This document shows positions 748 to 49,251 of a DNA stretch of 64,000 bases, one piece after another. Under the pieces are notes generated by a model that saw only the letters and a list, made by a program, of their open reading frames with translations, made no database searches and was not told where the DNA came from. Source of the stretch: Chloroflexota bacterium (GTDB lineage Bacteria; Chloroflexota; UBA11872; VXOZ01); the NCBI GenBank assembly GCA_022824225.1, contig JAJEAH010000048.1:1-64000 (forward strand). Reading direction: 5' to 3'. Both the position numbers and the translations under genes were made by a program. Positions within the stretch are counted from its first letter, which is position 1; every line of letters begins with the position of its first letter.

Positions 748-1044
748 GGGAATGCGCTGCCTGCGGGCGCAATTCTGCTCAGCAGACTCGCCCAGGCCAG
801 CGGCGCTGGCAGGCTGCTCTGGACGCTGGGCGCCGCTTGTGGTGTAAAGCTCGGCCAGGCGCGCGCCATGAAACGACCCATGGCCGCCAGCAGGTCATGG
901 AAGACCCGCTACGACCGGGAGGGAAAGCCGTGAGGTTTCGGCCTATCGAAAAAGGTACACGAGCAAGCACTTAGGTGAATCACACAACGCTTTCCACCAA
1001 GAATCCGGAAGACTCTGGAATTCGCGCAGAAAACTAGAGAGGCT
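748..1044. other. intergenic gap without recognised gene
   Basis: About 300 bases between the aminotransferase and the beta-propeller gene. ORFs in the track here run into flanking genes in other frames. I see no RNA gene or clear terminator. Confidence 0.5.
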
Positions 1045-2109
1045 GTGAACGTGAGCATCGCCACACACCTACCCACCGAGAAACGCGTACTGCGCGACGA
1101 GCGCACCGGCGCGGTTATCTGGCAGTTGACGAACGCGTCCTGCGTGAATCACGCGCCGTATTTTCTCAACCCCGCCTGGGCAGGCGCCAATCACGACATG
1201 CTCATCATCACGTCGTACCGCGCGGGCGCGCCCAACCTTTACGGCATCCAGTTGCCGGACGGGGAATTGACCCAACTCACCACGAGCGGCGACGTGTCGC
1301 CCTGGTCGGCGTGCGTTGCGCCCGACGGCGGCCACGTGTACTACGCCGCCGCCACCCAGTTGCGCGCCGTAGACATTGCCACGCGGGAGGAAACGGTGCT
1401 CACGAACCTGCCGCCGTCGTCCTGGCTCGGCAACTGCTCCATCAGTCCCGACGGCTCGGAGATCCTGCTGGCGGCGCAAAAGGATGGCAAGAAAGTCATC
1501 CTGGCGGTGCGCACCGACGGCGGCGGCGAACGCGTGGTGTACGCCACCGATGACTTCGTGGCGCACGCGCAGTGGAGTCCCGACGGGCGCACGGTGCTCT
1601 TTTCGTCCGACCTGCCGCGCATGTGGCTGGTGGAGGCCGACGGCACGAATCCGCGTCCGCTGCGGGCGCAGACCCGGGAGGAGTGGATCACCCACGAGGC
1701 CTGGCTCTCCGACGACGAGATCATCTTCACCTACTGGCCCCACGCGCTGAAAGCCATCCGCCGCGACGGCAGCGGCGAACGCAACGTGGCGGAGTTCAAC
1801 TGCTGGCACCCCGCGCCCCGGCGCGACAGCGGGCAGATCGTGTGCGATACCACGCTGCCCGACGTGGGACTGCAACTCATCGATCCGGCGACCGGCGCAC
1901 GCGAGGCGCTCTGCTACCCGCAGGCGTCGTCGCAGGGCTTCCAGTGGGCGGAGCCGGAACCGTACATGGGTGAAACCGCGCCGGACGACGCCTACGGCCC
2001 CCAGTGGACGCACCCTCACCCGTCATACGCCCCCGACAGCCGCGCCGTGGTTTACACGTCCGACGTATCGGGACACCCGCAGGTGTATCTGGCGTTCGTC
2101 GATGCATAG
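1045..2109 (+). CDS. oligogalacturonate lyase-like seven-bladed beta-propeller protein
   Basis: A 354-residue protein resembling the PL22 oligogalacturonate lyase family (usually about 390 residues). These enzymes beta-eliminate short pectin oligomers in the cytoplasm using a metal held by one Gln and three His. Blade motifs such as ISPDGSEILLAAQ and WSPDGRTVLFSSD recur through the chain. The C-terminal QWTHPHPSYAPDS supplies Gln320, His323 and His325, and NCWHPAP gives His255, so the expected metal-site pattern appears intact. Many environmental relatives are annotated only as TolB-like or PD40-repeat proteins, so pectin activity is inferred. Translation may begin at GTG 1045 or GTG 1051; AGAGAGG just upstream fits the second slightly better. 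No signal peptide is visible. Confidence 0.75.
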   Translation: MNVSIATHLPTEKRVLRDERTGAVIWQLTNASCVNHAPYFLNPAWAGANHDMLIITSYRAGAPNLYGIQLPDGELTQLTTSGDVSPWSACVAPDGGHVYYAAATQLRAVDIATREETVLTNLPPSSWLGNCSISPDGSEILLAAQKDGKKVILAVRTDGGGERVVYATDDFVAHAQWSPDGRTVLFSSDLPRMWLVEADGTNPRPLRAQTREEWITHEAWLSDDEIIFTYWPHALKAIRRDGSGERNVAEFNCWHPAPRRDSGQIVCDTTLPDVGLQLIDPATGAREALCYPQASSQGFQWAEPEPYMGETAPDDAYGPQWTHPHPSYAPDSRAVVYTSDVSGHPQVYLAFVDA

Positions 2110-33330: not shown

Positions 33331-33690
33331 CAGCAGGCTGCGCACGCGGAGGCTAGGGCTCCGGGGGTGTCAGGGGCAATCCCAGCAAGCGGCCTGGCAC
33401 GAAGTACTCGGTTGTAAGGCTCTGGAGGCGTTAGGGGCAATCATCTCATTCCCAGCAGGCTGCGTATGGGGTGGCTATGGAATGCGCCTGCCACGGGTCG
33501 TGTGTTCACTGATGTAACGTCTGCGGTAGGGCGAAAGCGGAGATGGTGTGGGTCGTTGCGCGTTGGCGGTGGGAGCGCCAAGAAGGCGTTCGCACTGAAC
33601 TCGGACACGCAGGTACCGCAGACCGTTCGCGCTGAGCTTGTCGAATAGCAGAACAAGCGTTCGCGCTGAGCTTGTCGAATAGCAAAACAA

Positions 33691-33836
33691 CCGTTCGCGC
33701 TGAGCTTGTCGAAGCGCCTGACCGCGCTGGAAGCAAATGGAGTCCGGTATTTTGCCTAGCCCGCAGCCGTGGCGCCTGGTTGGTGGCTGGCCTCTGCCTG
33801 CTGCCGTTCATACTTCGACGCGCTCAGCACGAACGG
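33691..33836. mobile_element. MITE-like element, copy B
   Basis: 146 bp, nearly identical to copy A through the interior (GGAGTCCGGTATTTTGCCTA, CGTGGCGCCTGGTTGGTGGC) with the same inverted ends. Confidence 0.7.
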
Positions 33837-33918: not shown

Positions 33919-34052
33919 CCGAGATTGGCGTGTTTTCTCTGGGGTAGCCGCCTGTGGTAAGGGAAAAGCGGACGGTGCGCGCATGGTCACGCGTTAGTGG
34001 TGGAAGCGCCAAAAGGCCGTTCGCGCTCAGCTCGAACACGCGGGCGCCACTC

Positions 34053-34277
34053 ACCGTTCGCGCTGAGCAACAAAACGCAGACACCGCTCAACCGTTCGCG
34101 TTGAACAACGAAATGCAAACACCACTCACCGTTCGCGTTGAGCAACAAAATGCGAACACCGCTCAACCGTTCGCGCTGAGCAACAAAATGCAGACACCGC
34201 TCAACCGTTCGCGCTGAGCAACAAAATGCGAACACCGCTGACCGTTCGCGCTGAGCAACGAAATGCAAACACCGCTT
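34053..34277. repeat. 37/38-bp minisatellite, six units
   Basis: Unit lengths 38, 37, 38, 38, 37 and 37. Each begins ACCGTTCGCGCTGAGCAACA and continues AAATGCRAACACCGCT. The first half is the F1 arm. The array runs directly into copy C of the 146-bp element. Confidence 0.9.
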
Positions 34278-34278
34278 A

Positions 34279-34424
34279 CCGTTCGCGCTGAGCTTGTCGA
34301 AGCGCCTGGCCGCGCGGGAGGGAGGCGGATCCCGGTGTGTTGCCTAGCCCGCAGCCGTGGCGCCTGGTTGGTGGCTGGGCTCCGCCTGCTTCCGTTCATA
34401 CTTCGACAAGCTCAGCACGAACGG
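34279..34424. mobile_element. MITE-like element, copy C
   Basis: 146 bp with the same inverted ends (right end CTTCGACAAGCTCAGCACGA followed by ACGG). The left interior is diverged from copies A and B, while the right half is conserved. Confidence 0.7.
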
Positions 34425-39413: not shown

Positions 39414-39580
39414 CCATAGGGATGCCCTATATGGCAAGAATGTCTGGAGGTCTCTATGAGTCGTCTTCCTGATTGCTTTGCAGGCTCTTCCAGAAGACGT
39501 CTACAACACGATTCGCAATAGACTCTGCATCACTCTCTTGTTCATCGGACGGTCTATTGTGGCTGGGCTGTTCCCTAGGT

Positions 39581-40543
39581 TTATTCCGCTCTTCGGCGTG
39601 AGGATCTTCCACCTTGACCTCCTTTGAATCGCTGAAAGAACTGCGGGTTAATCTCAGGATCGAAGTAGTGCTTGCGTTTGATCCAGATGAAACCGTCCCC
39701 TTTTGAAATCAGAGCAACATCAATCGGCCCGCCCACCGTTTCATGTTCCTCAGACACTTTCCTCTTCAGCGACTGTAAACCAACCATTGCCTCCGCTACA
39801 GCGGGCAATTCACTTTTTGGCATCTCAGCAATAGTGCGAAGTACGGGTTGCGCATATTCTTCCCACTCAATTCGGTCCAGTTCCCTATATAGACTGCCCA
39901 TAGCATCTCTTAGAGCCCGGGACACATCTTCGTCCGACTCCTTAAGAGTACCAGTCAAGAGCCTAGTAAGGATATGCTCAACTATTCTCAGCAGCTTTCT
40001 ACTGTACGAAGGCTCTGCCCCATTCATGAATCCCTGGACAACTTCCTTTTGAGCGTATGGGAGGATTAAAGCCTCAATTCCTTGAATTGCTATACTCGGT
40101 TTTTCTAAACGATACATGAGTTGCCCGCGAAAGCCCAGAACTTCCAAGGATACAATTGCAGGATAGATCTCTCTTTTCCCAAATCCGGCAACGACAATGC
40201 CAGAACGCGGCCACTTTACCTCCTCTTGGTCTATCCGAAGCTTGCTGGCCTGGACATTAATGAAGCGAATGAAATCCGATGTGTAGTCTTCGATAGTTCC
40301 CTTTTCCTCTATCCCCAGATGGTCTCTATACAACTTGATCACAGTTTCCCAGGGCACTTCTCCAAGGCGAGCGTTACCGTAAATCATTATGCCCACCGGT
40401 TGATGCTGGGAGAGTGCGAATAGCTTGTTTGCTGACGTAAAGATCTTCGCAACTTCCCCATATTCGCTATCGGCAAGAGTAACAGCGCTATCAGCAGCAA
40501 GAGCTACTGCTTGCTGGTTCATCACTGCAATCTCAGCGGTCAC
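39581..40543 (-). CDS. orphan proteasome/HslV-like Ntn hydrolase
   Basis: A 320-residue protein of a family I cannot name. GTG 40543 is strongly supported by AAGGAG six bases upstream and gives Met-Thr-Ala-Glu. Met removal would expose Thr. Counting that Thr as 1, AVALAADSAVTL puts Asp at 17 and Thr-Leu at 21-22, exactly as in HslV and proteasome beta subunits, with Lys32 (AKIF) close to catalytic Lys33. VGIMIYGNARLGEVPW fits the following beta strand and glycine. The remaining 250 residues are mostly helical, longer than any proteasome subunit, and end in a basic tail. G+C is about 47%, far below the surroundings. No ATPase partner lies nearby. Ntn activity is inferred from register and pattern. 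Confidence 0.6.
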   Translation of the reverse strand: MTAEIAVMNQQAVALAADSAVTLADSEYGEVAKIFTSANKLFALSQHQPVGIMIYGNARLGEVPWETVIKLYRDHLGIEEKGTIEDYTSDFIRFINVQASKLRIDQEEVKWPRSGIVVAGFGKREIYPAIVSLEVLGFRGQLMYRLEKPSIAIQGIEALILPYAQKEVVQGFMNGAEPSYSRKLLRIVEHILTRLLTGTLKESDEDVSRALRDAMGSLYRELDRIEWEEYAQPVLRTIAEMPKSELPAVAEAMVGLQSLKRKVSEEHETVGGPIDVALISKGDGFIWIKRKHYFDPEINPQFFQRFKGGQGGRSSRRRAE

Positions 40544-40728
40544 CAAACTCTCCTTCAAGTGCAACTTTCGTACAACCTCGTTGCCTGGTATTGGCGCCCT
40601 TCCTCATTTGCGAACCATGGCCTAGGTTTCGTAGTACACCCAGCGGATGCCTCTCAAAGTGCGGTAGGAAATCAGGGATCGAGCGAATGTCCAGCTTTCC
40701 TTGTCATTCAGATTGAGCACATTGAAGT

Positions 40729-47607: not shown

Positions 47608-49251
47608 GTGATTGGCCGGATACGACGTAGTATTACGGTAGCCTTAGCCCTTGCGGCGCTCATGGTCGCCGTTTCCTGTAGTGTGCGCGTGATCGAGCCG
47701 CCGCCGGATCCGGCGGAGGATTCCGCCGCATTTACGCAGTATTTCGTGGAACAGGCGATTGCGTTCTACGAGGCGAACGGACTGCAAGCGACCATCGACT
47801 TCTACAACACGATGGAGAGCGTGAATGGCGCGTGGTACGTTTTCATCTCGGACGAGAACGACATCATGCGCGCCCATGCCGCCGTGCCGGCCAACGTGGG
47901 GTTGCATGCCGATCAGATTTTGGGGCCGGGCGGATACCCCGCGGGAACACAGGTAGCCGCGGCGGCCACTGCAGAGGGCGCCTGGACTACCTACACCTAT
48001 ATAAATCCGGCAACGGAGGCATTTCAGACGAAGCACTCGTGGGTGGTGCGGCATGACGGTCTGGTCTTTGGCTCCGGTTGGTATGAGGATGGACCGTCGA
48101 AAGATGACCCGGCGGCCTATACACAGGAGTTCGTGGCCCAGGCGGTCCGGCTGTATGAGGCTGTTGGGTTAGCAGACACGGTAGCGTACTACAACACGCC
48201 GGACAGCATTGACGGTCAATGGTACGTCTTCGTCTTCGATGAAAACGACACCATGCTCGCCCATGCCGCCGTGCCGGCGAACGTGGGACTCCACGCCGAC
48301 CAGATTTTGGGGCCGGGCGGCTATCCCGCGGGCGCGCAGGTAGTGGCGGCGGCGGCTGACGAAGGCGCGTGGACGGACTACGCGTACGTCAACCCATCAA
48401 CCGGCGCATTCGAATCTAAGCACTCGTGGGTGGTGCGGCACGAAGGGCTCGTCTTCGGCTCGGGCTGGTATGAAGACGGCGCGTCGAAGTCCGATCCGGC
48501 GGCGTACACCCAGGCATTCGTGGCGCAGGCTATGCGGCTCTACGACGCCGTTGGGCGCGAAGACGCATTTGCCTATTACAACTCGCCGGAAAGCGTAGAC
48601 GAGGACTGGTACGTCTTCATCGTGGATGAAGACGAAAACACCATCGTGCACCCCACCCGTCCTGAATTGAGAGGCACTTCCCCGAAGACACGCGTTGACG
48701 TGCGCGGCAAGGCGTATGGCGAGGAGCTCGTTCTCGCGACGGCGGACGGCATCTGGGTAGACTACTATTTCCTCAATCCCGCAACCGGCTATGAGGAGCA
48801 GAAACACGCTTGGGCGGTCAAGCACGATGGCCTGATCTTCGTCTCCGGTTGGTACGTGCGTGCCGAGGCGGAGGACGATGCAACGTATACCCAGTCCTTC
48901 GTGCACCGCGCCATCCAGCGGTACGACGCGCAAGGTCGCGAAGCCGCCCTCGAGTTCTTTAGCTCAGAGCAGAGCGTGCAGGGCCAGTGGTACGTGTTCG
49001 TGCTCGACGAGAACCAAGTCACTATCGCCCACCCCAATCCGGAGCACATCGGCCGCACCCGTGAGCAACGCATCGACACGCGCGGCTACGACTACGGCGC
49101 GGAGTTCCTGACCGCGACCGCGGAAGGCAAGTGGGTTGACTACGAGTTCCAGGACCCGGAGGCCGACCAAGAACGCCTGAAGCACACGTGGATCATCCAG
49201 CACGACGGGCTTTACTTTGGCTCGGGCTGGTATGAAGACGTAGGCGAATAA
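47608..49251 (+). CDS. lipoprotein with four tandem single-Cache-like sensor domains
   Basis: A 547-residue exported protein. GTG 47608 is chosen because AGGAGGT stands six bases before it and it begins a clean signal peptide (RRSITVALALAALMVAVSCS) with a lipobox-like AVSC. Four repeats of about 130 residues follow. Each starts T-x-x-F-V-x-x-A-x-x-x-Y and has W-Y-V-F-x-x-D-E-N, then H-x-W-x-V-x-H-D-G-L-x-F-x-S-G-W-Y. This matches single-Cache ligand-sensing domains normally found singly in receptors. Repeats 1 and 2 share an identical 20-residue-plus stretch (AHAAVPANVGLHADQILGPG), showing recent duplication; 3 and 4 are diverged. No kinase or chemotaxis module is attached. A ligand-capturing surface lipoprotein is likely. 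Confidence 0.8.
   Translation: MIGRIRRSITVALALAALMVAVSCSVRVIEPPPDPAEDSAAFTQYFVEQAIAFYEANGLQATIDFYNTMESVNGAWYVFISDENDIMRAHAAVPANVGLHADQILGPGGYPAGTQVAAAATAEGAWTTYTYINPATEAFQTKHSWVVRHDGLVFGSGWYEDGPSKDDPAAYTQEFVAQAVRLYEAVGLADTVAYYNTPDSIDGQWYVFVFDENDTMLAHAAVPANVGLHADQILGPGGYPAGAQVVAAAADEGAWTDYAYVNPSTGAFESKHSWVVRHEGLVFGSGWYEDGASKSDPAAYTQAFVAQAMRLYDAVGREDAFAYYNSPESVDEDWYVFIVDEDENTIVHPTRPELRGTSPKTRVDVRGKAYGEELVLATADGIWVDYYFLNPATGYEEQKHAWAVKHDGLIFVSGWYVRAEAEDDATYTQSFVHRAIQRYDAQGREAALEFFSSEQSVQGQWYVFVLDENQVTIAHPNPEHIGRTREQRIDTRGYDYGAEFLTATAEGKWVDYEFQDPEADQERLKHTWIIQHDGLYFGSGWYEDVGE

Follow-up and report, generated by a model that had tools for sequence, protein, structure and literature searches.

Does the proteasome-like reading frame on this Chloroflexota contig encode an Ntn hydrolase, and does the gene stand alone? 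We investigated this question in a stretch of 64,000 nucleotides (hereafter the window), in which a gene at 39581..40543 on the (-) strand had been described, in an earlier note made from the letters alone, as an undescribed single-gene branch of the proteasome-type Ntn hydrolases. We found that the enzyme is a real, well-supported member of a known but uncharacterised group and that a tiny gene overlaps its end. The tiny partner gene is the new part, and the shortened form of the enzyme encoded here is of secondary interest.

Start, size and composition of the enzyme gene

The gene starts with GTG at 40543, preceded six bases away by an AAGGAG ribosome-binding site at 40550..40555 (-). This start, proposed in the earlier note, was borne out by the sequence and by homology: an M/V/L-T start was present in 12/12 proteins of the first alignment, 11 of them annotated by others. 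An upstream TTG at 40564 was considered as an alternative start and rejected, because the relatives begin at the same Met-Thr-Ala-Glu. Translation of the reading frame gave the expected length of 320 residues. The gene pair has a G+C content of 0.484 against ~0.65 around it, which confirms the A+T-richness noted before, and the suggested horizontal acquisition is supported by this low G+C content, by the sporadic spread of the family and by its mobile-element-borne relatives. The gene list agrees with the remark that no known partner ATPase lies nearby, and the published picture is the same for all these homologues.

Proteasome-type fold and active site

Pfam and NCBIfam searches with the window protein gave nothing useful; Pfam Proteasome (PF00227) left it unmatched and matched 2/88 relatives at E about 1e-3. 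The single window sequence had no phmmer match in the PDB, and the family profile returned coiled-coil noise and only a short, weak match to a proteasome beta chain. Since the sequence searches of the PDB were uninformative, fold comparison was needed. The AlphaFold2 model, built with an alignment of 88 relatives, reached a pLDDT of 86.9 and a pTM of 0.85. Foldseek comparison of the model with the PDB yielded 368 chains at E<=1e-3, and all 50 listed were proteasome or Anbu chains, with E 4e-8 supporting a proteasome beta fold. By VIA-align, the model matched yeast beta5 at Z 16.2 (183 residues, 3.1 A), the alignment opening with model residue 2 at residue 1 of the beta5 chain, and Anbu at Z 15.8 (198 residues); the long homologue L097 had a structural Z of 18.1. 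A wrong fold had been named beforehand as the refuting finding; it was looked for by structure prediction and the proteasome fold was obtained, so that model and structure comparison upheld the claimed proteasome-type Ntn fold. In the model, helices 65-76 and 84-98 (H1/H2) come after the first sheet, and helices 166-174, 178-199, 205-240 and 243-263 precede the last two strands, where the canonical fold has two helices.

To compare the active site with that of HslV, the window family was aligned by hhalign with a profile of 29 HslV proteins from Chloroflexota genomes. Thr2, Asp18, Thr22 and Lys40 paired with Thr1, Asp17, Thr21 and Lys33 of HslV, respectively (single-comparison E 5e-4). Among 88 diverse relatives, D18 and K40 were present in 88/88, T22 in 84 with S in the other 4, and residue 2 was T in 87 and S in 1; start choice at self-translated loci favoured Thr/Ser/Cys at position 2, which slightly biases that column and leaves D18 and K40 unbiased. 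Because the ETVGGP and G..W..RK residues served to find the relatives, part of their invariance follows from that selection, which did not draw on Asp18 or Lys40. The register of Thr1, Asp17 and Thr21 with HslV, claimed from the single sequence, was therefore recovered both in the profile pairing and in the conservation. Structural alignment, the HslV profile and conservation all identify codon 2 (40538..40540, (-)) as that of the Thr1 nucleophile once Met is removed, and the profile and the 88 relatives identify the codon of Asp18 (40490..40492, (-)) as that of the catalytic Asp17.

The proposed catalytic Lys did not hold up. Lys32 of the processed chain (Lys33 with Met counted; codon 40445..40447, (-)), which had been placed one residue from catalytic Lys33, is conserved in 84 of the 88 relatives, and HslV Lys33 pairs instead with Lys39, the invariant K40 (codon 40424..40426, (-)). 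Judged from these alignments, the predicted catalytic Lys is Lys39 and not Lys32, which lies in a small loop insertion relative to HslV. A proteasome-type fold and an intact active site can thus be regarded as almost certain. Methionine aminopeptidase removes Met before Thr, which leaves a free Thr1 nucleophile without a propeptide, and Met removal would expose Thr1 of the window protein in the same way.

The enzyme belongs to a known family

The branch is not undescribed, as had been supposed. The window protein matches phrog_5990, a family of unknown function, at E 1e-93 over both profile halves; the profile has 427 positions, whereas the protein has 320 residues and skips the middle. It also fits the PMI group of Fuchs, Alva and Lupas 2021, who described 22 new proteasome homologues (PMC8665760). 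In PMI-4, one insertion follows H1/H2 and another separates H3 from H4, and the group is spread over phages, Euryarchaeota and most bacterial phyla (PMC8665760). By architecture and distribution, the family is probably this PMI group, with PMI-4 as the best fit. The window protein shares with PMI-4 the proteasome-like core with Thr1/Asp17/Lys and the extra helices between H3 and H4, and the family shares its occurrence in bacterial phyla, archaea and phages. The long insertion after H1/H2 is a feature of the long relatives only (helices 101-215 in L097, which also has four helices before the last strands); unlike PMI-4, the window protein lacks this H1/H2 (pore-loop) insertion, as do its congeners L093 and L183.

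Relatives span archaea and many bacterial phyla: at least 467 confirmed stretches encoding them were found in species-level genomes and 154 in viral contigs, and relatives occur in 13 phage and 10 plasmid records. A search of open-licence PMC papers for a partner gene or a role in defence turned up the 2021 survey alone, which reported no informative gene context for the homologues (PMC8665760) and could propose no function for lack of it.

A tiny partner gene overlaps the end of the enzyme gene

A gene encoding 52 aa lies at 39454..39612 (-), directly downstream of the enzyme gene, whose end it overlaps by 32 bases. It starts with GTG, and an AAGGAGG ribosome-binding site lies 5 bases before this start, at 39618..39624 (-). 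The earlier reading of a single-gene system must be given up: a small ORF is conserved downstream in 100/104 relatives. When only position and length were required, an ORF of 42-80 aa occupied the partner position in these 100/104 relatives versus 154/693 control ORFs (22%; Fisher 3e-51), and with a Shine-Dalgarno rule the partner ORF was present in 57/71 genomic loci versus 42/615 control ORFs. At HslV control loci, a comparable downstream small ORF was present in 8/24.

An HMM seeded with 37 partners (consensus roughly xSxxEfEkxyFPks...Dpxx.Gxx.LAxesLxki) gave 51 matches (E<0.01) among the 38,907 ORFs from six-frame translation of all loci. All 51 lay directly downstream of the enzyme, and 14 of the 51 matched loci were outside the seed. 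Distances among the enzymes track those among the partners (rho 0.55, n=46), as shared inheritance alone would also produce. The window partner had no match to this HMM at E<0.01 and showed a weak C-terminal resemblance to the family (single-comparison E 0.044); it is tied to the family because of its position, overlap and length and the two congeneric copies. It is conserved in two congeners with dN below dS (dN 0.27, dS 2.9 for the window versus L093; dS is near saturation, which makes dN/dS rough), the pattern of a gene under coding-type selection. A Rosetta-stone search found no enzyme-partner fusion, and no neighbour other than the partner was widely common among the relatives' loci.

These results indicate that enzyme and partner very probably form a functional two-gene module. 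Whether the partner is a substrate or regulator of the enzyme is evenly balanced on this evidence. Lying directly downstream in about 96% of sampled loci, the partner is the first concrete candidate for such a role, which makes function testable; the published account of the PMI proteins has no gene context with which to compare it.

Small ORFs overlapping the 3' end were also seen at distant proteasome-like genes of Chloroflexota: a 61-aa ORF at 2048-2233 beside 1033-2055 (+) in L186, a 65-aa ORF at 1722-1919 beside 889-1734 (+) in L180, and a 90-aa ORF at 1682-1954 beside 883-1707 in L187 (reverse-complement coordinates). The layout of an enzyme and a small overlapping ORF may be wider than the phrog_5990-type family.

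Proposed function of the module

The explanation that we favour, and consider rather probable, is a two-gene module of a proteasome-like Thr-Ntn hydrolase and a tiny co-translated partner. The extra helices would disfavour an HslV-like double ring and suggest a monomer or small oligomer; that H3/H4 insertions are expected to hinder double rings was argued by Fuchs et al. (PMC8665760). Because of the H3/H4 insertions and the absence of an accompanying ATPase, the enzyme likely acts on a specific target as an ATPase-independent Thr protease or transpeptidase and not as a degradation barrel. The partner would serve this enzyme specifically, as a substrate, an inhibitor or a targeting subunit.

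With HslV (ClpQ), the window protein shares the equivalents of Thr1, Asp17, Thr21 and Lys33 by profile alignment, but it escapes PF00227, carries extra helices, and has a small partner gene and no HslU seen in its neighbourhood. Anbu gives a similar structural score and likewise has no known ATPase, whereas its C-terminal H5 coiled coil contrasts with extra helices that, in the window protein, precede the last strands. Connectase, too, is a proteasome-type Ntn enzyme that works alone, carries helical insertions and has a specific protein substrate; however, it lacks the H1/H2 that the window protein has, and only some methanogens are known to encode it. The pairing of a tiny gene with a proteasome-type gene recalls the Pup-proteasome operon, an analogy of layout only: the partner here is downstream and not upstream, no Mpa/PafA-like genes were seen, and the partner C-termini vary, with none ending in GGE/GGQ and that of the window partner ending in EDDS.

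We examined the genomic setting of the relatives, which often travel in plasmids, prophages or satellite phages. Streptococcal satellite phages and one prophage carry them at their ends; in phages of Providencia and Stenotrophomonas they adjoin lysis genes, and in a Porphyromonas phage the gene sits within the structural region. In E. coli, a relative was found in 9/5426 genomes; in the one of the nine whose context was examined, it lies in a prophage and runs antisense to the genes on either side. Since the module is often mobile cargo in relatives, its benefit is probably conditional, and competition between phages or other elements plausibly provides the condition. A role in such competition is plausible, although we rate it as the less likely outcome; if true, it would make a proteasome-type protease a form of mobile cargo. 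A broader and speculative version, by analogy to connectase or to a Pup-like tagging pair, would be a mobile two-component system across bacteria, archaea and viruses in which a proteasome-fold Thr enzyme cuts or ligates the small protein encoded with it, for use in conflicts between mobile elements, and which is present in stripped-down form in the window's genus; we consider this version unlikely.

In the Mesorhizobium and Rhizobium plasmids, a pair of genes encoding a multiubiquitin-domain protein and a ThiF (E1-like) protein lies within a few kb of the enzyme (L010, 2733-4799; L012, 7944-10450), two cases that are perhaps due to chance. An Rfam search at the window locus returned nothing.

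The mobile setting also bears on a second possibility, that the genes form a toxin-antitoxin-like or abortive-infection pair, in which the small protein restrains a harmful protease and phage infection lifts the restraint by altering or removing this inhibitor. The overlapping two-gene layout and the cargo position in satellites and prophages agree with such a pair. Both neighbours are antisense at 21/87 loci versus 73/525 in the control (p 0.02), and restriction-modification, Avs1 and Lamassu components occur near only some genomic loci, raw co-occurrences that are no more than suggestive. However, the Pfam families of 140 neighbours were mixed and mostly those of ordinary genes, and PADLOC models gave only weak, scattered matches to the window protein and 88 members, with no convincing defence family. 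A PADLOC LeoBC match in 4/88 members (E 7e-5) was judged to be coiled-coil noise. We regard a pair of this type as possible but doubtful.

Less probable still is a housekeeping role, in which the enzyme, as a general protease independent of ATPases, would take over from HslV the removal of damaged or unfolded proteins and the tiny gene would encode an assembly factor. No PF00227 protein, and therefore no detectable HslV, was found in the window's own genome (95% completeness) or in the congeners G001-G003, congeners retain the gene in the same syntenic position, and uncapped-proteasome-like roles have been suggested for some homologues by Fuchs et al. (PMC8665760). Against such a role stand the very patchy spread (5/6 genomes of the genus, and no listed genome elsewhere in the class), the frequent carriage by phages, satellites and plasmids, and the conservation of the partner far beyond HslV-less hosts. 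The two-gene module with a specific target remains the preferred reading.

A short paralogue in the window's genus

The window protein lacks a helical insertion of ~110 aa that its relatives possess. The 320-aa short form was found in three congeneric genomes, that of the window, G002 and G004 (L093 matches G004 in sequence), and these three species of one Chloroflexota genus are the only ones found so far to carry it. In all three it occupies the same locus, flanked by an ankyrin-repeat gene on one side and a HAD-type gene on the other; the window locus shows no mobile element and is syntenic in congeners, and the gene is thus settled there. The long form is located elsewhere in G001, G002 and G003, and G002 carries both forms. 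In a tree built without the insertion columns, the short forms made a 100% clade whose stem measured 0.91; the genus's own long forms were its sister group (99%), and it lay inside the long family. As a paralogue that kept the active site and a partner gene but not the helical insertion, the window copy offers a natural deletion of the insertion for structure-function work.

One could read this copy as a decaying, inactive paralogue in which the loss of the insertion marks relaxed constraint. The long stem, the lost insertion and a partner diverged beyond HMM detection are in its favour, but all catalytic and nearly all family-invariant residues are kept, three species retain the short form with its partner gene, and the enzyme is under strong coding-type constraint between two congeners (dN 0.106, dS 1.78 for the window versus L093; dN/dS about 0.06), which makes decay improbable. 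Most improbable of all is that the tiny ORF is there by chance and has no link with the enzyme: small downstream ORFs are common under loose rules, as the controls demonstrate, but the frequency in relatives is far above 22%, the HMM matches this position only, dN is below dS, and the window has a strong Shine-Dalgarno site.

The long-form paralogues of the congeners (L173, L174 and L175) each have their own overlapping partner of 65-67 aa. A gene beginning MPNAATALIAAAFRARG lies near them, and their genomic place differs from that of the short form. In L176 and L182 (G045:C1:601711-604071), the long-form gene is split by about 1 kb with a transposase-like ORF. A spirochaete protein (L095, 3378-4193, 271 aa) was considered as a second short form and rejected; its internal deletion removes a core strand, and it is probably degenerate or an assembly error.

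Elsewhere in the window, tandem repeats at 34047-34293 and 33622-33713 are built on ACCGTTCGCGCTGAGC, and several other short tandem repeats occur in the same stretch. A direct repeat of 387 bases, in 2.1 copies with 76% matches, spans 47833-48635.
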